Source of the DNA: a virus
Virus record (IMG/VR): IMGVR_UViG_3300009103_001698
Span: 17,937 to 81,936 of that record
Length of the DNA stretch: 64,000 nucleotides
Reading direction: 5' to 3' (one strand)
Below the pieces are notes generated by a model, which was given only the letters and a program-made list of their open reading frames with translations, made no database searches and was not told the DNA's origin. Numbering within the stretch: the stretch's first letter is position 1; each line of letters starts with the position of its first letter. Both the position numbers and the translations under genes were made by a program. This document shows, in pieces, positions 931-19,270 of the stretch.

Positions 931-1269
931 GTGAGCGAAAAGAAAACATCCGACAATAAAACTATTATCGTAGTTGCAGTAATAACCTCGCTAGCGGGTC
1001 TAGGGACGGCTGTGGTCAATCGTATCAGCCCAAACGAGCCAGCAGCCAAAGTAAGCTATGAAGTCGTCAAAGACGCTGTTGGCACCGTTGCTGACGACAT
1101 TGATAAGTTGGAAACTCGCTTGAGAGAGGCGGAAAAAGCGCTGGCAGTTCTAAAACACTCTCGTGGAAACAGAAGACCACGATCAAGAATGAGAAAGAAA
1201 AGAGAATCACTCAAAAAACGGGTCAGAATGCCAGATTATAGCACCGTACAGAGAGGAAAAAGAAGATGA
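931..1269 (+). CDS. Membrane-anchored coiled-coil protein, possible inner-membrane spanin
   Basis: A 112-residue protein with a GTG start. After a short polar N-terminus, residues 11-28 (TIIVVAVITSLAGLGTAV) form a membrane anchor. A coiled coil follows (about residues 45-80, including DDIDKLETRLREAEKALAVL), then a very basic Arg/Lys-rich tail. The next gene, a lipoprotein, overlaps it by 4 nt (ATGA). An N-anchored coiled-coil protein coupled to an outer-membrane lipoprotein is the layout of i-spanin/o-spanin pairs that fuse the two membranes at lysis. However, the basic tail and the Cys-rich partner are unusual, so an envelope or DNA-associated role is also possible. Spanin function is inferred from layout only. 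Confidence 0.45.
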   Translation: MSEKKTSDNKTIIVVAVITSLAGLGTAVVNRISPNEPAAKVSYEVVKDAVGTVADDIDKLETRLREAEKALAVLKHSRGNRRPRSRMRKKRESLKKRVRMPDYSTVQRGKRR

Positions 1270-1661
1270 AGAAAATTATTATGTTAATGGCACTTGTTTT
1301 AGCAAGTTGTACCTACGATTATAAAATTCCAATAGACACAGACGCGATCAAATACGTTGTAGAACACCCAATCGCACCATCAGAGCCAGATACGGTAGAG
1401 AAAAGTGAGAAGATCGTCGAGATCACAGGGGAAGCAGAAATCTATACTCCTCAATCTATCAATTGTCCAGCATTGGCTGGCTTTATTTCCAGCAACATTC
1501 TTTTATCAACCTATTGTAACGTCGCACAGAAAGAAAATTATAAATGTTGTAGAGTTCCATACGACGATGATAACTTAGCCTGTAAGGTTTTCTTTTGTCA
1601 CACAAATATAACGAAAGATTACACTGTTGCTTGTATGGGCTACAGTGATGAATGTGAATAA
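1266..1661 (+). CDS. Cysteine-rich lipoprotein (first of a tandem pair)
   Basis: A 131-residue protein with a lipoprotein signal peptide: basic start, hydrophobic core and lipobox LASC with the modified Cys at residue 15. The acylated protein would sit in the Gram-negative outer or inner membrane facing the periplasm. The mature part has eight or so cysteines, including CC in ENYKCC and a final DEC, in a pattern shared with the next gene (C...C-x5-ENYxCC...C-x-V-x-FC...C...DEC). The two are therefore tandem paralogues, probably stabilised by disulfides. It overlaps the upstream anchored coiled-coil gene by ATGA, suggesting a joint envelope function. Specific function unknown. Confidence 0.6.
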   Translation: MKKIIMLMALVLASCTYDYKIPIDTDAIKYVVEHPIAPSEPDTVEKSEKIVEITGEAEIYTPQSINCPALAGFISSNILLSTYCNVAQKENYKCCRVPYDDDNLACKVFFCHTNITKDYTVACMGYSDECE

Positions 1662-1664
1662 CGC

Positions 1665-1677
1665 TACTAGTTATTAT
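1665..1677 (+). promoter_or_regulatory. TACTAGTTATTAT element abutting the start at 1678
   Basis: This AT-rich element ends directly at ATG 1678 and resembles the sites at 437 and 663 (CATAGT or TATAGT followed by six bases and ATG). No clear -35 and no Shine-Dalgarno are visible. It may be another leaderless promoter-start unit; weaker than the others. Confidence 0.25.
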
Positions 1678-2007
1678 ATGCGTTATGAATTTTTATTGAT
1701 AATAATTCTACTTTTCGCCGCTTGCACGGTCAATTTAGAGGTTGATGAACTTCCAAAAGTAGAAGTAGAACATAAACTTACATTACCAGAGTCAGCTGAC
1801 GGTACAATTCCACATCAGTGTGATAATTTGGCGAACATAGAGATGAGCAAGTTCTTTGAAGCAGGACTTTGTGACGAATATCAAAGAGAAAACTATACTT
1901 GCTGCGAATTTAAGTATAATGCGACATGTACTGTGTCTTTTTGTACAATGATAAAACCTTCATACGAAAAATACTGTACAATGATCAGTGATGAATGTCA
2001 GTTTTAG
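1678..2007 (+). CDS. Cysteine-rich lipoprotein (second of a tandem pair)
   Basis: From ATG 1678 this is a 109-residue protein with a textbook lipoprotein signal: MRYEFLLIIILLFAAC, modified Cys at residue 16. An in-frame upstream ATG at 1627 would bury the signal peptide and overlap the previous gene, so 1678 is preferred. The mature domain repeats the cysteine layout of the upstream lipoprotein (ENYTCC, VSFC, final SDEC), showing a tandem duplication followed by strong divergence. Both probably sit in the periplasm anchored to a membrane. Phage lipoproteins can block receptors (superinfection immunity) or act as outer-membrane spanins; neither is proven here. Confidence 0.6.
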   Translation: MRYEFLLIIILLFAACTVNLEVDELPKVEVEHKLTLPESADGTIPHQCDNLANIEMSKFFEAGLCDEYQRENYTCCEFKYNATCTVSFCTMIKPSYEKYCTMISDECQF

Positions 2008-2270
2008 GAGAGACACATAACGCTAATAGAACGATGGCTAGAAAAACAGAAAAAGAGCAAATAAAAGAACTTAAACGACGACTGAAAAGCATAAACAAAG
2101 AGTGTGATGCGCTTAAAGATGAGAATGAATCTCTCTGGTTCCTTTTAGACGAGATGAAAGAATCAAGGATAGAGAACTTTACAGATGAGATAATGGAATT
2201 GTTGGAAGATACTCACGAAAAAATGGTAAAAATGAGAAAATCGATGGTTAGTAAAGCTTCAGAAGCGTAA
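1995..2270 (+). CDS. Coiled-coil hypothetical protein
   Basis: A strongly charged helical protein (91 residues from ATG 1995, or 78 from ATG 2034). Residues from about 15 to the end have heptad-like Leu/Ile spacing (EQIKELKRRLKSINKECDAL and following), typical of a dimeric coiled coil. The 1995 start overlaps the lipoprotein gene by 13 nt; ATG 2034 follows an AGGAG at 2006-2010 at too long a distance for a normal ribosome-binding site. I cannot choose between the two with confidence. No family recognised and no membrane segment seen. Confidence 0.5.
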   Translation: MSVLGETHNANRTMARKTEKEQIKELKRRLKSINKECDALKDENESLWFLLDEMKESRIENFTDEIMELLEDTHEKMVKMRKSMVSKASEA

Positions 2271-2273
2271 ACA

Positions 2274-2720
2274 ATGCAAGAACTCCTAGAAAAAATGAAA
2301 AAAGACGGTGACGAACCCGAAAGAAGGAAGTTCGGAGCCTGTGTTGTCATTCTCAGAGGCAATCAGTTCCTCGCATTAGAAAGATCTTCAGAGTCAGAGT
2401 TCGCACCGGACAAATGGGGCTTTCCAGGAGGTGGTTCAGACCCGGGAGAGACCCCAGAAGAGACAGCAGCAAGAGAAACTTACGAAGAAACCGGTCTTAT
2501 TGTCAACGAACTTGTGTTTTTGACAATGAAAGTGGGAAATAAAGGCAAATTTGTCTATTTTTTCGCTTGTGACGACTTCAGTGGTAAGGTTGATATGAAA
2601 AAAGTGAAAGAAGAGCACAAAGATTATGCTTGGATCGAACCTCACGAGATGAATAAGTATTCTTTTGCTGATAAAGTGGAAGGTTTTATCGATCGCTTAG
2701 TAACAGGAACAGTTTTGTGA
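2274..2720 (+). CDS. Nudix hydrolase
   Basis: A 148-residue protein with a perfect Nudix box, GX5EX7REUXEEXGU, at residues 53-75 (…PGETPEETAARETYEETGL). Nudix enzymes cleave nucleoside diphosphates linked to another group, using Mg2+ bound by the REXXEE glutamates. The length is normal for a single-domain member. Possible substrates include (d)NTPs, ADP-ribose, NAD(H) or RNA 5' caps; the box alone does not tell. It lies upstream of a protein with an NMN-adenylyltransferase-like domain, and some phages (for example KVP40) link Nudix and NMNAT activities in NAD metabolism, so an NAD-related role is possible but inferred. Confidence 0.9.
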   Translation: MQELLEKMKKDGDEPERRKFGACVVILRGNQFLALERSSESEFAPDKWGFPGGGSDPGETPEETAARETYEETGLIVNELVFLTMKVGNKGKFVYFFACDDFSGKVDMKKVKEEHKDYAWIEPHEMNKYSFADKVEGFIDRLVTGTVL

Positions 2721-6978: not shown

Positions 6979-8130
6979 ATGCCTTGCTCCAAAATTACAA
7001 ACAATTCAAACTTCGAAGTAGACAAACATCAACCTATGTTTGACAGCTTCTTTCCTTATAGCCAAAAAGTTCTTGGTTTTGATAAGCCGTTTTCTTTAAA
7101 TTTTGCTTCAGATCAAGAAAATTCTGCTAATCCGTTAGGAAGGACAGCACATTATGACCCTTCCAGTTCTGAAATAACTATTTATGTAGATGGGCGGCAT
7201 ATAAAAGATATTATGCGGTCTATCTCTCACGAATTGGTTCATCACGCACAAAACTGTCGTGGTGAGTTTGATAAGGGGATTAGCACAGATGCTGGTTATG
7301 CTCAAGAAGACGGTCATCTGCGTGGAATGGAAAGAGAAGCGTATGAGAAGGGCAACTTGTGTTTTCGTGACTGGGAAGACCAGTATAAACAACTAAGGGA
7401 AAATAAAATGACTAAACTCGTTAAAAAAGAAATTAAGAAACTGTTGAAGGAGGCATATAACCCCTTGGATCCACAGTCGCGACCAGCTGCGGTGCCGTCA
7501 ATGGTTGATTCTCGCGAACAGAAGATGCTTTATGTTATTCGTAAAACTTCATGGGGTAAAAATTATACCGATGATTTTTGGAATGATTTTTCTGATAAAG
7601 AAAAACTTATGGTTTTTAAAAAAGCAAAAAAAGACTTAGCGGATCCACAGCCCAGCCCTGCTCCAAGAAAAAAGAAAAGACGCTTTCCTACTATTAGGGC
7701 GCCGATTGTTAAAGGGATACAGAGGGAACTATTAAAATTTTTTGGTGGAGTAACTGTTGGAGAATCAAAAGAATTAAATGAGCGCGATATAAGTGCGGCT
7801 GAAATCTTAGGAGGGAGAGGAAAAATCGATGGGGCACTCGGACCCACAACCTTTAAAAGCATCAAAAAAACACCTTGTGGAAAAGGTTTGTTTCTGGGTA
7901 ATCTTAAAGATGTCCTACCTAACATTCTTAAATGCTTACAAAAACAAAATGGAACAAAAGTAAAAAAACCAGTAGCTTCTAAGGCACCGGTGGATTATGG
8001 ACAATCAACACCTACAATTACATCTTTAGAAGAATCAAAAGTCGACTTCACCAATAAACATCTCGAACCGGTTAGAAAACGATTTTCAAAACTATTCGAA
8101 GCATTAGTTAAAAAAGGTAATAAAAAATGA
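6979..8130 (+). CDS. Zincin metallopeptidase-like virion protein
   Basis: A 383-residue protein. The N-terminal domain (1-150) carries HELVH (His84, Glu85, His88) within SISHELVHHAQNCRG and a downstream Glu in GMEREAYEKGN as the likely third zinc ligand. A basic helix MTKLVKKEIKKLLKEA follows, then a linker and a region near residues 270-300 (GKIDGALGPTTFKSIK) resembling part of a peptidoglycan-binding repeat. The LLKEA and SLEES sites resemble L-x-E prohead-protease sites. It overlaps the next gene by 4 nt. A role in cell-wall penetration or virion maturation is inferred. Because the internal MTKLVKK… Met begins a typical phage N-terminal helix, an old gene fusion is also possible. Confidence 0.55.
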   Translation: MPCSKITNNSNFEVDKHQPMFDSFFPYSQKVLGFDKPFSLNFASDQENSANPLGRTAHYDPSSSEITIYVDGRHIKDIMRSISHELVHHAQNCRGEFDKGISTDAGYAQEDGHLRGMEREAYEKGNLCFRDWEDQYKQLRENKMTKLVKKEIKKLLKEAYNPLDPQSRPAAVPSMVDSREQKMLYVIRKTSWGKNYTDDFWNDFSDKEKLMVFKKAKKDLADPQPSPAPRKKKRRFPTIRAPIVKGIQRELLKFFGGVTVGESKELNERDISAAEILGGRGKIDGALGPTTFKSIKKTPCGKGLFLGNLKDVLPNILKCLQKQNGTKVKKPVASKAPVDYGQSTPTITSLEESKVDFTNKHLEPVRKRFSKLFEALVKKGNKK

Positions 8131-9683
8131 GTAAAAGCTTTCATAAAGAACAAATAAAAAGATTTCTTTTAGAAGAGAAAATAGAGAAAGATGAGGAACC
8201 AGAACTTTTAAATGAAGCGTGGCCTCTGGTGGCCGCGATTGTAGCAGGTCTTGGCGCATTGGGATATGCAGGCTATGCAAATCGAGAACAATTTGACTAC
8301 AGTGCAAAATGGAAACGTAGAGTGGGGGCAGCGTACAAAAACCCAGAAGCTTTCGACAAGCTCCTAGATGACGCCTTGTTCGATAAATATACCTCTGACG
8401 CTTCAGCTAAAGCTGCCTTAGATGGAATAGCTGCTGCGATCGGCAGATGTAAACATAGTCGTACTAAAAAAGAAGGTGCTTACGACTCTTATGCTTATTG
8501 TAAACAAATAAAGAAAATTCTTAGAAAGCCCGGGAACAACCCCTTTATTGGAAACCCAGCAAAATATAGCAGAAAAAATATTGAAGATCAGTGGCACAAT
8601 GTTTCAGCAGTTCAAGACGATCTAAAAGACAAAATTTATACTGCACTGCCAAAACTTGCCAATTTTAAGCTTGGAGCACCACCGGAAGATGATGAAGATT
8701 TTGAAAAAGATGGACCAAAGGGCAGTAAAGGGCCAAGCTTTGGCAATCTGAAAAAAGCAAAAGGAGAAGTCATAGCTGTTTATGGGACGCGTTCTAAAGT
8801 TTTTGTGCCTGGGGTTTCAACTGATAGATTTGACTTGAAGCAGAGAATATTATTTAGTACCACGTTTAAAGATTCTTTTGAAGCACTAGCCAAAGGAAAG
8901 TGCGATCTTGGAAGTATGTATGATAAAAGCACAGATTCTTGTATACGCATCTCTCGTCCAGAACTGAAAATTAGTTCACACGTTGTTACAGCTCAACAAG
9001 TAGAAGGTGGAACAGAATTAATTGTTAACAAAGGAAAAAATTGGGGAATAAACATTGGAGCAAATGTCCGTTTCCCGGGAGCTTCAAGTTCATCTGGAAC
9101 CGGTAAAAGAGGCAGAACGGGCGGTGGAGTCAAATGTTCTTCTAAACTCCTAAAAAGAGGTTGTAGAGGTTCATTAGTTACAAAACTCCAAACAAGATTA
9201 AAACAATTAAATTATGATCTTGGGAAGTACGGTGTCGATGGTAAATACGGCGGAGCAACCGCCGGCGCTGTTTCAGCTTTTCAAAAAGATAGCGGTTTGG
9301 GAGTAGACGGTGTAGCAGGTAAGAATACATTAGCAGCATTGTTTAGTAAAGCGGCGACACAGAAAGCTAGCGTCCCTGCTGCTGACGTTGCTGATGCCGG
9401 ACCAAAAGCATCAAAAGTTGGAGGGGGCGTAGTTAGTCAGATTAAAGCGAAAGCAGATCGATTCATACAGACATACATTGATCGTGCCAGAAGAGAAGGA
9501 GTTTCTGATGATAAAATTTGGAACATTGTCAAAAACTATAACAAGACTAATGCTAAAGCAATCAACACTGCGCTCGAAAAAGTATCTTATCTAAAAGAAT
9601 CCAACATGAACAAGGTTCTCGCAGATCACAAAGAACAGGTTCTCGTTGAAAGGCTCGAAAAATTAACAAAAGGTCTTGTGTAG
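8127..9683 (+). CDS. Putative virion protein with a peptidoglycan-binding domain
   Basis: A 518-residue protein. It starts with a charged helix (HKEQIKRFLLEEKIEKDEE) and LLNEA near residue 30, an L-x-E-A site like those cut by T4 prohead protease. A hydrophobic stretch follows (WPLVAAIVAGLGALGYAGYA, about 31-50). Residues 346-406 match a PG_binding_1 domain (CRGSLVTKLQTRLKQL, then GVDGKYGGATAGAVSAFQKD and GVDGVAGKNTLAAL). The middle is low in recognisable domains, and the C-terminus is helical. The peptidoglycan-binding domain would anchor the protein to the cell wall during entry or lysis. It is coupled by overlap to the upstream metallopeptidase and precedes the ligase/NMNAT-like gene, suggesting a set of co-packaged proteins. 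Confidence 0.6.
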   Translation: MSKSFHKEQIKRFLLEEKIEKDEEPELLNEAWPLVAAIVAGLGALGYAGYANREQFDYSAKWKRRVGAAYKNPEAFDKLLDDALFDKYTSDASAKAALDGIAAAIGRCKHSRTKKEGAYDSYAYCKQIKKILRKPGNNPFIGNPAKYSRKNIEDQWHNVSAVQDDLKDKIYTALPKLANFKLGAPPEDDEDFEKDGPKGSKGPSFGNLKKAKGEVIAVYGTRSKVFVPGVSTDRFDLKQRILFSTTFKDSFEALAKGKCDLGSMYDKSTDSCIRISRPELKISSHVVTAQQVEGGTELIVNKGKNWGINIGANVRFPGASSSSGTGKRGRTGGGVKCSSKLLKRGCRGSLVTKLQTRLKQLNYDLGKYGVDGKYGGATAGAVSAFQKDSGLGVDGVAGKNTLAALFSKAATQKASVPAADVADAGPKASKVGGGVVSQIKAKADRFIQTYIDRARREGVSDDKIWNIVKNYNKTNAKAINTALEKVSYLKESNMNKVLADHKEQVLVERLEKLTKGLV

Positions 9684-9694
9684 AGGTCGATTAA

Positions 9695-12600
9695 ATGAAA
9701 ACAAAGTCCTTATTAAATGAAGGCGGTGTGGCAGGACATATGTCCCACCTCTATGATAATCCAGAACTCACTTTTGCGAAGATGAAAGAAATCTTTCATA
9801 AAGCCTCTGAAGGCGGATTACTTGGAACAGAAAAAACAGACGGTCAAAATCTCTTTATTACATACAACGTAAGAGAAGGCAAAGCAAAAGCAGCCAGAAA
9901 TAAAGGAAACATCAAGTCAGGTGGATTAGACGCTGCTGGTTTGGCTGCAAAGTTCAAAGATCGAGGAAACCTAGAAAAAGCATTCAACGACAGTTTCGCA
10001 GCATTCGAAGAATTCGCTTCCAGCTTAAAACCAGAAACACAAGTAAGGATCTTTGGAGAAGACGGAAACATTTATTACAACTCTGAAATCCAAGATCCTC
10101 TTTCTCCAAATGTAATACAATACGACGAAGCAACTTTGGTTATTCACGAAGTTGGACACGCCTACTTTAACAAAGAAACAGGCAGCGTAGAAGAAGTAGA
10201 CGTTACAGAAAATGCAAAAGCAATGCAGGCGGCTTTGGAAAATCGCTTTGATCCAAAAGACAGCAGATTTAGGGTTCAAAGGAATGCTATTGTTCAGCTT
10301 CAAGCTCTGTCCGATAAGGAGCCTTTGAAACGGGCATTAGCAGCCCTAGAAGCCGCTCTAAGCGCAGTAAATCTTCCCGACACATCAACAACGGGTGAAT
10401 ACCTTTTGGCGCGTTTAGAGCCCATTCTGAACGCAGAAGGTGTTTCTTTCAAAGAGGGTCAATACAAAATGCTGATCCAAAAGATTTTGGGGCACCCCGG
10501 GGTGTTTGTTCGCAATATCAAAAAGGGACACACACCGGAAGATCAGAAGAAAATTGCGGCTATGATCAAGAATGGTCCACGTTTCCTCAAAGACGCTATG
10601 CGTCCCATAGAAGAAATAGTTCATGAGTTCGCCACTGAAATGGTGAATGGTCTCCAAAGTGCTTTTGTGTTGGATAATACAAAAGAAGTTCAACGACTAA
10701 GAGGTAAACTTAAAAATGCTATTAGTGCTATTGAGGCAGCCGCTGATGAAGGAAACCTTGAAATCTTATCTCAGCAAATGGAAAAACTCAAGAACATCGA
10801 AAGTGTTGGAACAGCCGCAGAAGGTTTCGTATTCAATTTCGATGGTTATACATACAAATTTACCGGTAGTTTTGCCCCAATGAACCAAATCCTAGGTTTA
10901 TTCAAATACGGGCGAAAAGGCAAAGAAGCACTACCAGATTTATTCTTAGGTGATGACGCCACTAAGGGCGAGGCAGAGTTCCTTTACGGCGAACCTGAAC
11001 CTGAGAAACCTTATGTTAATGAGAAGCTGACAGGACCTAGTGATCATGTTACAATACTGTATCCGGGCGGTTTTAAGCCACCACACGCTGGTCATTTTGA
11101 ACTGGCAAAACGCTACGTTGAACACCCAAATGTTGAAAAAGTTATTATTATGCTTGGTCCGAAAGAAAGAACTTCGAGAGACAAGAAAGTTGTGATTGAT
11201 AAAGAAGCGTCTCTTTTCCTTTGGGGTAAATACAAAAACGCTCTCGGTGAGAAAGCCGTTATTGCTGACATGCCAGAAGAAGCAAAAGGTAATCCTATGA
11301 GGGCTGCTTATAAATGGGTTGAGAAATTCGCACAAGAAGGCGAAGTATTTGCACTTGCAGCCAGCGATAAAGACGCAGGAAGAGCAGAAGCTTTTGCTGA
11401 AGGTCATTGTCACCCATCCGGTAAATACTGTATTTCTGGTGTAGACGTTGTAGAACTGGCTGTTGAAACTCAAGCTATAGTTTATAAAAATAGAACTGAT
11501 GGTAATAATGATGCGAACATTAGTGCCTCTCAAATGAGAGAAGATTTAGCGGCTGGTGATAAAGAGAACTTCAAAACCAATTTACCACAAGAAGTCGCTG
11601 GTCAAGCCGATGCTATCTATGATTATCTCACAACTGGCGAAGAACAAGAGCCAGAAGTCCAAGATCAGAAGCCACACGATGTTATTGACCAAATGATAAA
11701 TGAAATTATTGCATGTAAAGGTTATAAAATCAAAATACATTCAGAAGAAGAACTAGAAGAGATGTCTTCTATGGCTGGTGGTTCTGTAGCAGGTTATGCC
11801 GGTGGTGGAAAGAAAAAAGGAAAAAAGCAAACTAATTACATTAGACGCGGACTCAAGGAAGATGCTATGAATTTAGAAGAACAAAAACTACGACAACTCA
11901 TTCGTAATAAACTTAAAAAGAGGGCAGTTATGCAAGAACAAGAAAAACTGGAAGAACAAAAGCTTCGTCAGCATATTCGAAAACTTATTATTCAAGAAGC
12001 TGCTGATGAAAATCCCACTCGTTCAACCGGAATTAATAAACTGGTCGGTACTCTTAAAATTATCCTCAAAACAATTGAGAGAGGTTATAAAGGATTGGCA
12101 ACAAGCTCTTCCCAGCGAGAATCTTATAAAAAGCACCTAATCAAAGCTATGATTGATACTCTTTCACCTCACGATGCTTTGATGAGTTTTAGTGCCGATG
12201 AAAGTGAAGAAGACGATTTAATGGCTGAACCTGACATGGCGTTACAAGAACTTAAAATGGATGTTGATGACGATCCTGTTGCTGATAGTCCTCTTGGCAT
12301 TGATCCAAGCGCAGCTGAAGGTGAAGAGTTAAAAACTCCTGCTGAAAAAGAAGCAGAAGCTGCCGCAGAGGAAGAAGAAGTCGCAGCTGCTGATAGAAAA
12401 AAGAAAGAAGGTTATAAAGATGTTGATGGCGGGGAACAATTGTTTCCTGAAATTCCTGGACTAGATCTTACTGGTAGAGATGAAGCCGTTGACATTTACA
12501 AAAAAGTTATTGATGCTGTGACGCGGCAATATGCCAGACTGCATGACGAAGACGATAGAAAGCATTATAAAGATTATCTCGTAACCAACCTATTGCTACA

Positions 12601-12837: not shown

Positions 12838-13200
12838 ATGAAAGAAGTTGATTATACAAAAAAAGATATTAAATATTATAGTATATCTAAGAAATTAAAA
12901 AGAGATAAGAAGATCTCAGAAGACTTCGAAGTTATGTTAAATAACCTATCTCTAGAAGAAATTATAGCTCTTAAGTTAGAGTTAGCTTCTAAAGTAGTTA
13001 AGAATAAATTATACGGCATTAATATATATAAGACCCTACCTAGGATCTCCAAAGATGCTGCTTTAAAGTATGCTATTTCAGCTTGTAGAACTAAGTATTC
13101 AGCAGCTGCTTTTTTAGGAATTACATACAGAAGGTTAAAACAAATACAAAGGAAGTATAATATATACGGATACTTTGACGAACAGAAAGATGATTTATGA
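12838..13200 (+). CDS. Fis-like helix-turn-helix DNA-binding protein
   Basis: A 120-residue basic protein. The C-terminal 45 residues (DAALKYAISACRTKYSAAAF, then LGITYRRLKQIQRKYNI) match the Fis-type helix-turn-helix found at the ends of Fis and sigma54-activator proteins: alternating helices with A-x-x-LGI at the turn. The N-terminal part is charged and helical. It is likely a transcription or nucleoid regulator acting on phage or host DNA. It is the first gene after a sigma70-like promoter, consistent with early expression. The start codon lies in TTATTGTATG with no clear Shine-Dalgarno. The DNA target is unknown. Confidence 0.65.
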   Translation: MKEVDYTKKDIKYYSISKKLKRDKKISEDFEVMLNNLSLEEIIALKLELASKVVKNKLYGINIYKTLPRISKDAALKYAISACRTKYSAAAFLGITYRRLKQIQRKYNIYGYFDEQKDDL

Positions 13201-16849: not shown

Positions 16850-17611
16850 ATGGCAAATGGCCACATTAGTTATTCAGAATTCAAGATTTGGAGTGAGTGT
16901 CCCTGGCGACATAAGCTCAGTTATTTAGATAAATTATCAACATTTAACGGAAATGAGTTTACAGCGTTTGGAACAGCTGTCCATGAAGTTTGTGAAAGAA
17001 CTGTCAAGGACGAAGAAGATCAAACTCCTGAAGCATTCCAAGCAGCATTTTCAAAAGAATTAAAAAAATTAACTGTCGATCTAAATAAAAAGTTAGTCGT
17101 TGAAATGAATGTACAGGGCAAAGCAATGCTTCCTGAGATCTTTCCAGCACTTAAAGAATATTTTGGAGAATACGAAATTGTTGAAGCAGAAGAGAGACTC
17201 TATGAACCAATAGAAGATAGCGAGCTACTTTTCAAAGGTTTCATAGATCTAGTGTTAAAAACAAAAGACGGTAAGTATCACATTATCGATTGGAAAACTT
17301 GTAGCTGGGGTTGGGATGCTAGAAAAAAATCAGATAAATTGATCACTTATCAGCTAACTCTTTATAAAAACTACTATGTACAGAAGCACAATTTAGATCC
17401 AAAAAACGTAGAAACACACTTCGCTCTCTTAAAAAGAACGGCGAAAAAAGATAGAGTGGAAATCTTCCGTGTAACCAGCGGAGAAAGAAAAACAAAAAAT
17501 GCACTTAAAGCTTTGAACTATTCCCTCTATAATATAAAAAAATCACGCTTTATTAAGAACCGTCTTTCTTGTAAATACTGTGAATTTTATCAAACAAAGC
17601 ATTGTCCATAA
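16850..17611 (+). CDS. Cas4/RecB-like Fe-S exonuclease
   Basis: A 253-residue PD-(D/E)XK nuclease. Motifs are SYSEFKIWSECPWRHKL at the N-terminus, GTAVHEVCE (His of the RecB-family motif), FKGFIDLVL (Asp) and HIIDWKTCS (the D-x-K core), then YQLTLY (the Q-x3-Y motif). Four cysteines, one at the N-terminus (ECPW) and three in CKYCEFYQTKHCP at the end, match the [4Fe-4S] site of Cas4 and AddB. The family digests single-stranded DNA ends. In phages, Cas4-like proteins serve recombination, replication or host DNA degradation. There are no cas1/cas2 genes or repeats nearby, so a CRISPR role is unlikely. Confidence 0.85.
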   Translation: MANGHISYSEFKIWSECPWRHKLSYLDKLSTFNGNEFTAFGTAVHEVCERTVKDEEDQTPEAFQAAFSKELKKLTVDLNKKLVVEMNVQGKAMLPEIFPALKEYFGEYEIVEAEERLYEPIEDSELLFKGFIDLVLKTKDGKYHIIDWKTCSWGWDARKKSDKLITYQLTLYKNYYVQKHNLDPKNVETHFALLKRTAKKDRVEIFRVTSGERKTKNALKALNYSLYNIKKSRFIKNRLSCKYCEFYQTKHCP

Positions 17612-17612
17612 G

Positions 17613-17732
17613 AAAAAAAGAACTAAAAAATTGATGGATGCCGGTTATAATGTTATTATCATTTGGGAAAATGATTATTTAGAAAATAAACAAGTTGTAA
17701 TAGAACAACTTTTGGAGAGGTTAAATGAATAA
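17613..17732 (+). pseudogene. Possible remnant of a Vsr-like homing endonuclease
   Basis: In the frame ending at TAA 17730-17732, about 40 residues read KKKRTKKLMDAGYNV, then IIIWENDYLENK. The 'R-x-K-x-L-x-x-x-GY-x-V-x-x-IWE-x-D' pattern resembles the C-terminal end of Vsr/DUF559-type endonucleases, which include intron-associated homing enzymes such as the I-Bth0305I type. No catalytic N-terminal part exists: the same frame hits a stop at 17535-17537 within the nuclease gene. An ATG at 17634 could still give a 32-residue peptide. Its position immediately upstream of a group I intron-split gene supports a decayed homing gene. Assignment by pattern only. Confidence 0.35.
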
Positions 17733-19270
17733 GGAAAAAATGAACGAAGAAAAGATCAAAATCTTTACGATTTCAGATATGCCGTTAGTGACTTAGCGGC
17801 AGTAAAATTGGGTGAATTGCTGGAAACCCCTCAGAGTCAAATAAACCACAACATAATTGGAAACGATAAGTGTGAAGGTTAGAAAATTATTTGAATTGGA
17901 CAATCAGCAGCCAAGCTCCTGTTTAGAAATAATGGAGAAGGTTCAGAGACTACGGTAAGCCTAAGTTGTTAATATGGTGATAATCCGACAGCGCCCAACA
18001 CTCATGAGAGTGATGATATAGTCCGACTGTTTATGAAAGTAAATAGGTTTTTGTAAGTCCATCTGGAGTAGGCACCCAGACTCGATACGTTATTGAAGGT
18101 TTGTTGAAGACCGGTAAATACAAATTTGTTTCTCTAGGAGGGGCAATCAAACACCAACAATACCAACCAGTCAAAACAGAAGAGTGGGGAGATGATTGGG
18201 TTATTTATCCAGTTGATGGGTTTGGAAACCCAGATGTTATTAGATCTATTATCAGAAATGAAAAACCAGCACTTCTTTGGTTTATGACAGATCCTCGCTT
18301 TTATGAATGGCTCTGGGCGATAGAAGATGAGATTCGACCATTGATGCCAATGGTTTATTATCACGTTTGGGACAACTATCCTTATCCAGTTTTCAATCGT
18401 AAGTTTTATCTTTCCAATGATTTCATAGCCACTATTTCAAAGGTTACAGACGACTTTGTAAAAACAGTAGCACCAGAGGTTGAACGAGAATATGTTCCAC
18501 ACGCTGTCGACTCAGAAGTTTTTAAACGCCTAACAGACGAAGAAATGTTACATTATAAAGGTAAACACTTTGGAGCCGGCGATAAAAAAGTTACTTTCTT
18601 CTGGAATAATAGAAACGCTCGTAGGAAACAAAGTGGATCATTAGTTTGGTGGTTCAAAGAATTTCTTGATCAAGTCGGACACGACAAAGCAAGACTGATT
18701 ATGCATACTGATCCAAAGGATCCTAATGGACCAGATTTGGAAGCGTATGTACATGAACTTGGGCTTACCAATGGTGAGATTATGTTTTCAAAAGCAAAAG
18801 TTCAACCACAAGATCTGGCTGTGATGTATAACATCGCTGACTGCGTTATTAACATTTCAGACGCAGAAGGCTTTGGACTTGCTACTTTGGAAGCATTGTC
18901 TTGTGAGACACCTATTATTGTTAGTATGACCGGCGGACTTCAAGAGCAGGTTACTGATGGCAAAGATTGGTTTGGTGTTGGTCTTGAACCAGCTAGTAAA
19001 GCTGTAATCGGTTCACAACAAGTTCCCTTCATTTATGAGGACAGGGTTGCCAAAGAGGATTTCCTTGCTGCGATGCATAAAATCTACAAGATGACCGACA
19101 AACAACGTCATAAACTTGGAAAGAAGGGTCGTAAGCATGTAGAAAAGAATTACAACTTTGAGAACTTTCACAAGTCTTGGAATCGTATTATTGCTAAAAC
19201 ACTAGAAAAGCACGGCTCTTGGAGCACTCGTAAGGAACACAAGGCATGGACGCTTAAGGAGGCAGCATGA
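17725..19270 (+). CDS. GT4-family glycosyltransferase, split by a group I intron
   Basis: The gene is join(17725..17785, 18054..19270), giving 425 residues after splicing. Exon 1 encodes 20 residues ending ISDMP plus one base; exon 2 resumes LSPSGVGTQTRYVIEGL, restoring the Gly-rich N-terminal motif of GT-B glycosyltransferases. The C-terminal half has EGFGLATLEA (E-x7-E), the donor-sugar phosphate-binding signature of GT4. The unspliced frame stops after 23 codons (TAG at 17794-17796). A ribosome-binding site GGAGAGG (17714-17720) precedes ATG 17725. It transfers sugars from nucleotide donors, probably to a surface glycan, and it heads the 21-kb glycan cluster. The next gene overlaps by ATGA. 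Confidence 0.9.
17786..18053 (+). ncRNA. Group I self-splicing intron, 268 nt, no internal ORF
   Basis: The core is visible. P1 pairs exon TGCCGT (17780-17785) with guide GCGGCA (17796-17801), ending in the required U-G pair at the 5' splice site. P10 pairs exon 2 TAAG (18054-18057) with CTTA (17792-17795) directly next to the guide. The intron ends in G (18053). P4 pairs TGCTG (17818-17822) with CAGCA (17905-17909); P6 CTCC (17916-17919) with GGAG (17934-17937); P7 GACTA (17948-17952) with TAGTC (18019-18023); and a P8-like hairpin CACTC-ATGA-GAGTG spans 17999-18012. GATATAGTCC is a hallmark of T4-type group I introns. Splicing restores the glycosyltransferase frame exactly. With no homing gene inside, mobility would need help in trans. 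Confidence 0.93.

Follow-up and report, generated by a model that had tools for sequence, protein, structure and literature searches.

A group I intron of 268 nt splits a GT4 glycosyltransferase (GT) gene at positions 17786-18053 of the window, the 64,000-nt stretch of viral DNA analyzed here. Together with a nuclease gene directly upstream of the first exon, the intron probably makes up a mobile unit of the collaborative homing type, the nuclease half of which has decayed in this phage. The assignment as a group I intron with exact boundaries inside a GT4 gene is strongly supported by pairing, covariation and uninterrupted copies of the gene in relatives.

The intron and its host gene

A cmscan search places a match to the Rfam group I intron model (RF00028) at 17776-18045 on the plus strand, covering the whole model length with 87 bits (E 8.5e-21) against a gathering cut-off of 50 bits, and this is the sole group I intron in the window and in the 81,936-base record. 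The preliminary description had proposed the same 268-nt element together with a P1 closed by U-G at the splice site, P10, P4, P6, P7 and a terminal G, all of which pair or are present as described, and P3, P6a, P8 and P9 pair in the window copy as well. The intron contains no long open frame. The features of the locus are as follows.

16850-17611, plus strand: upstream neighbor, a 253-aa protein (ORF); its stop is the left border of the nuclease-remnant insert
17610-17732, plus strand: remnant of a Vsr/EDxHD-type free-standing homing endonuclease, last 40 codons and stop, without the catalytic segment
17725-17785, plus strand: GT4 exon 1, starting at ATG 17725 or at ATG 17740, the latter preceded by AAGGA at 17731-17735 (frame, alignment to contig L002)
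17780-17801, plus strand: P1, exon 1 UGCCGU (17780-17785) with guide GCGGCA (17796-17801), U.G at the 5′ splice site (pairing; compensatory exon and guide changes across relatives)
17786-18053, plus strand: group I intron, 268 nt, no ORF, last base G 18053 (RF00028, helices, covariation)
17792-17795, plus strand: P10 guide strand CUUA, with UAAG opening exon 2 at 18054-18057 (pairing; three of four pairs changed on both sides)
17808-17998, plus strand: P3, 17808-17814 with 17992-17998, around P4, the P5 domain, P6 and P6a (pairing, covariation)
Within P3, plus strand: P4, 17817-17822 with 17905-17910; P6, 17911-17912 with 17940-17941; P6a, 17916-17919 with 17934-17937 (pairing)
17948-18023, plus strand: P7, the guanosine-binding helix, 17948-17952 with 18019-18023 (pairing, covariation)
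Between P7 and P3, plus strand: P7.1/P7.2-type pairings, 17953-17955 with 17985-17987 and 17959-17961 with 17976-17978 (covariation)
Within 17948-18023, plus strand: P8, 17999-18003 with 18008-18012 (pairing, covariation)
18028-18045, plus strand: P9 hairpin, 18028-18034 with 18039-18045 (RF00028 match, pairing)
18054-19270, plus strand: GT4 exon 2, Glycos_transf_1 (ORF; Pfam PF00534, E 4.4e-14)

Two extra pairings of the IA type connect the region of the P7 5′ strand with that of the P3 3′ strand: CGG with CCG in all 16 introns compared, and RCC with GGY, which is seen as GC, GU and AU among the same introns. Such P7.1/P7.2 pairings between P7 and P3 are taken here to be the mark of group I subgroup IA, and the sequence fits an IA-type assignment.

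When 17785 is joined to 18054, a GT4 frame of 425 codons stays open and reads ISDMPLSPSGVGTQT at the splice point, in agreement with the earlier proposal that splicing restores ISDMP-LSPSGVG, and the unspliced frame reaches stops at once. The insertion point is the Leu codon immediately before the SPSGVG motif. ATG 17740 appears more likely than ATG 17725 to be the start, because it aligns with the GT start in L002, the closest relative. The longest unspliced ORF begins within exon 2, at 18101, and gene callers will consequently shorten the gene. It is extremely improbable that the intron of the window is dead, with splicing lost and the GT gene left broken: the 40-codon nuclease remnant does attest to decay at the locus, but the core helices all pair, the RF00028 score lies far above the cut-off, and the spliced frame is intact and 94% identical in amino acids to the GT of L002.

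By eye, the upstream neighbor resembles a PD-(D/E)XK-like nuclease, and it is likewise present in the intron-bearing contigs L313, L315, L316, L319, L266, L321, L279, L285 and L236. The gene content, which includes a late sigma factor, baseplate proteins, PhoH and ClpP, reads as that of a T4-like phage. About 20 kb of glycosyltransferase and sugar-nucleotide genes, as read from ORFs, follow the intron-bearing gene at 18054-38377, and a 120-aa ORF at 12838-13200 gives a weak HTH_28 match (E 0.003) that falls under its cut-off. The preliminary description considered a surface-sugar gene an unusual intron host, a fair view in that a 2025 survey found split phage genes to be mostly genes of nucleotide and DNA metabolism (PMC11878797), but capsid and tail genes are also known hosts of phage introns (PMC3706429). 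A literature search of partial coverage found no paper on a group I intron in a phage glycosyltransferase gene.

Empty and filled sites in related viral contigs

The site is empty in the closest relative, L002, which has 94% amino acid and about 86% DNA identity, lacks the intron and reads MPLSPSGVG uninterrupted over the join. Its alignment to the window holds at 86% DNA identity as far as about 17617. A further insert in the window, about 120 nt long and situated between the stop of the upstream gene (17611) and the ribosome-binding site of the GT gene, is likewise missing from L002. The best 80 relatives, L002 and 79 others, are all intronless and contiguous at the same point. A sub-threshold RF00028 match of 17.4 bits in the record of L002 (L082) was rejected as spurious, since it falls within an unbroken GT ORF.

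The site is filled in 19 loci besides the window, found via the P3-P4 pattern plus the P7-P3 signature of the window intron; in each, an intron interrupts a GT homolog (37-66% identical) and exon 2 restarts at the same residue. These introns measure 253-286 nt and none has its own ORF. The 17 loci with both intron ends have a P1 of 6-7 bp closed by U.G, a P10 of at least 3 bp and a G as last base, and their predicted spliced peptides are clean, with DHPL followed two residues on by SGV. As some of the contigs are near-copies (L313/L316/L319; L314/L315; L220/L279; L318/L323; L322/L325), the independent same-site lineages number roughly a dozen. An initial same-site pattern scan yielded, among the matches listed, no locus that fitted the intron or the GT gene, and the intron signature had 0 exact matches in bacterial and archaeal genomes.

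Covariation was assessed on 16 aligned introns with exon ends and a 59-pair structure, in which 94.1% of cells are paired and 29 of the 59 pairs are altered on both sides. Cells changed on both sides number 134, compared with 40.8 ± 5.9 in shuffled sets and at most 25 with slid partners. Among the relatives, the exon-guide pairs of P1 show A-U in place of G-C, and the covariation of P10 supports the 3′ splice site independently, as this helix is not part of the Rfam model.

Introns with the same P3-P4 stretch were also seen elsewhere: adjoining a terminase exon in L225 (Terminase_6N, E 1.2e-5), beside a weak AAA match in L277, and beside a gene without a Pfam match in L218, L274 and L233. The intron-bearing relative L321 carries seven tRNA genes at 8080-11175 on the minus strand.

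The upstream nuclease gene and its link to the intron

Every intron-bearing locus with upstream DNA has a Vsr-type nuclease gene, or the remains of one, between the neighbor gene and exon 1. In the window, 17610-17732 encodes KKKRTKKLMDAGYNVIIIWENDYLENKQVVIEQLLERLNE followed by a stop. This remnant matches residues 313-348 of the 353 of phrog_22677 (E 4.7e-7) and, under that model's cut-off, MTES_1575 (E 1.2e-4); it shares 49% identity with the C-terminal end of the nuclease in L316, and among annotated phage proteins it comes closest to the Vsr-type endonuclease of Aeromonas phages. The locus is the sole match in its own record (E 4.7e-6), with no other copy there, and no GIY-YIG or HNH_3 homing nuclease was matched in the record. 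Used alone as a query against viral contigs, the remnant gave nothing confirmed. An ATAAG/AATAAG pentamer is present at both borders of the remnant insert (17607-17611 and 17728-17732), possibly as an insertion repeat or by chance.

The nuclease is apparently intact, at about 290-350 aa, in L313/L316/L319, L315, L318, L321, L322, L323 and L285, that of L316 having 288 aa; its frame is open to the contig end in L317, L314, L325 and L220; and truncated copies occur in L279, L236, L288 and the window. The intact proteins combine CxxC zinc-finger-like motifs with a C-terminal ADI..IEFNGxYWH segment, and two members of the family match NUMOD3. In a profile search the best PDB matches are to Vsr (E about 0.006). 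For an AlphaFold model (pLDDT 82, pTM 0.43), Foldseek ranks Vsr 1vsr first among PDB structures (probability 1.00, E 0.0035) and gives a match to the catalytic domain of I-Bth0305I, 3r3p, as well (probability 1.00, E 0.023, 18% identity), with none of the PDB matches reaching E 0.001. A Vsr-like nuclease domain with its catalytic segment is found in the intact relatives and the complete protein is not found in the window, where the nuclease, judged by its sequence, is reduced to its last 40 codons and cannot work.

The nuclease frame was also seen to continue across GT exon 1, out of frame with it, and then through 71-98 nt of intron before its stop, as in the following frames, given in GT orientation.

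L285, 582-1637: nuclease frame overlapping exon 1 and intron
L279, 2321-2641: nuclease frame overlapping exon 1 and intron
L236, 2816-3124: nuclease frame overlapping exon 1 and intron
L220, 1-168: nuclease frame overlapping exon 1 and intron

In L266 the nuclease gene is split by a gene of about 354 aa at about 1070-2583 (reverse-complement coordinates), which by eye resembles GDP-mannose 4,6-dehydratase.

Intron and nuclease are present together and absent together, with few independent contrasts: four are well supported and all are concordant (p 0.125). L406 and L407 carry both elements, and L408-L411, at 90% amino acid identity to them, carry neither. Each of the seven full-length matches from a search that started with the nuclease lies immediately upstream of a GT gene with the intron, and two of these loci, L431 and L433, were new. 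Among intronless GT loci with enough upstream DNA, all sampled from the nearer GT clade only, the nuclease lies beside the gene in 0 of 96. These figures bear on an alternative in which the nuclease homes alone by cutting elsewhere, in a flanking gene or intergenic DNA, and the intron is co-converted or has had its own nuclease purged and replaced. This account is unlikely, although it fits a nuclease gene that lies about 50-100 nt away from the splice site and not within the intron, and turnover of homing endonuclease genes (HEGs) is raised as an alternative for such loci in one report (PMC10448857); the absence of same-site introns with their own ORF and of nucleases kept at intronless loci both speak against it.

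On the GT tree, intron presence needs at least six changes, four of them forced by well-supported branches. A test of the intron tree against the deep GT split gave no rejection (p-AU 0.47). Since co-descent is not rejected, the tree was set aside as a proof that the intron moved from one deep GT lineage to another; co-descent over the long term may link the deep clades, alongside gains and losses inside them. The preliminary description had suggested that splicing could be coupled to production of the glycan enzyme, an idea that finds no support here. In its fuller form, retention of the intron for splicing-based control of GT output, for instance via guanosine level or translation, which would tie glycan synthesis to infection state, is very improbable. 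Splicing-dependent control has been proposed for phage introns in nucleotide-metabolism genes (PMC11878797), but here close relatives manage without the intron (L002 compared with the window, and L408-L411 with L406/L407), its presence is patchy on the GT tree, and it is tied to a homing nuclease. The patchy distribution, an insertion point that recurs exactly and a neighboring nuclease that has often decayed together argue for a mobile element that is tolerated by the gene.

Proposed collaborative homing and known systems

In the proposed collaborative homing, the intron would leave the GT4 mRNA by two guanosine-initiated transesterifications, most likely by self-splicing, with P1 setting the 5′ splice site and P10 and the terminal G setting the 3′ site. 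It would be paired, in a mobile unit of two parts, with the Vsr/EDxHD-type nuclease gene upstream of exon 1. During co-infection the nuclease may cut GT alleles that lack the intron, at the insertion point or close to it, and repair from the intron-bearing genome would then copy nuclease and intron jointly, after which the intron would shield the resident GT gene from cutting. In this phage the intron appears to have outlasted its partner, and it is proposed to persist because splicing makes it nearly harmless.

Whether phage introns are switches, weapons or followers of indispensable genes is debated (PMC11878797). A role of nuclease and intron as a weapon between co-infecting T4-like phages, directed at the intronless GT genes of rivals, is doubtful; were it to hold, the phage's own copy of the neighboring glycan region would be drawn into rivals, and a homing element would shape the spread of surface-sugar genes among phages in the wild. 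That a sugar gene outside DNA metabolism was entered repeatedly at the same codon, that empty and filled sites occur as pairs, and that the linked nuclease is seen intact, broken or nearly lost, favors the idea of introns following conserved nuclease targets. The GT locus also offers a natural series in which collaborative homing can be examined along with the phase of decay in the homing cycle.

According to reviews, trans-acting nucleases mobilize ORF-less introns (PMC3984707, PMC2988022), and F-CphI with the psbA intron of cyanophage S-PM2 is a case of collaborative homing (PMC6083498). The layout met in the relatives of the window, in which the HEG is vestigial, is similar, with an intron of the ORF-less type and a free-standing HEG adjoining the host gene. 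The two systems differ in that S-PM2 pairs psbA with the Endo VII-type F-CphI, for which cleavage was demonstrated (PMC6083498), whereas here a GT4 gene is paired with a Vsr/EDxHD-like nuclease directly upstream of exon 1, for which cleavage is proposed. Phage terminase introns likewise have the HEG outside the intron, beside the N-terminal exon, but the host gene is a terminase and the nuclease, as far as the accessible part of that report goes, is apparently other than Vsr type (PMC10448857).

Related introns of the phages DW2 and CF5 (Staphylococcus), 2050HW (Serratia), LPJP1 (Listeria) and 1.232.O (Vibrio) are 73-80% identical in DNA to about half of the window intron, have the P3-P6 domain in common with it, and sit in or beside other genes, such as a tail-tip hydrolase in DW2 and the RNA polymerase beta subunit in 2050HW. 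The Vsr-type endonuclease of Aeromonas phages Aes508 and Aes512 has the same C-terminal nuclease domain as the partner nuclease, but lies between split-intein DNA polymerase halves and not by an intron-bearing GT gene. I-Bth0305I (3r3p) is alike in its catalytic domain and differs in its accessory domains, which in the partner nuclease carry zinc-finger motifs. New in the present system are a sugar gene as host, a partner of the Vsr type, and a range of partner states, from intact through broken to vestigial, all at a single site.
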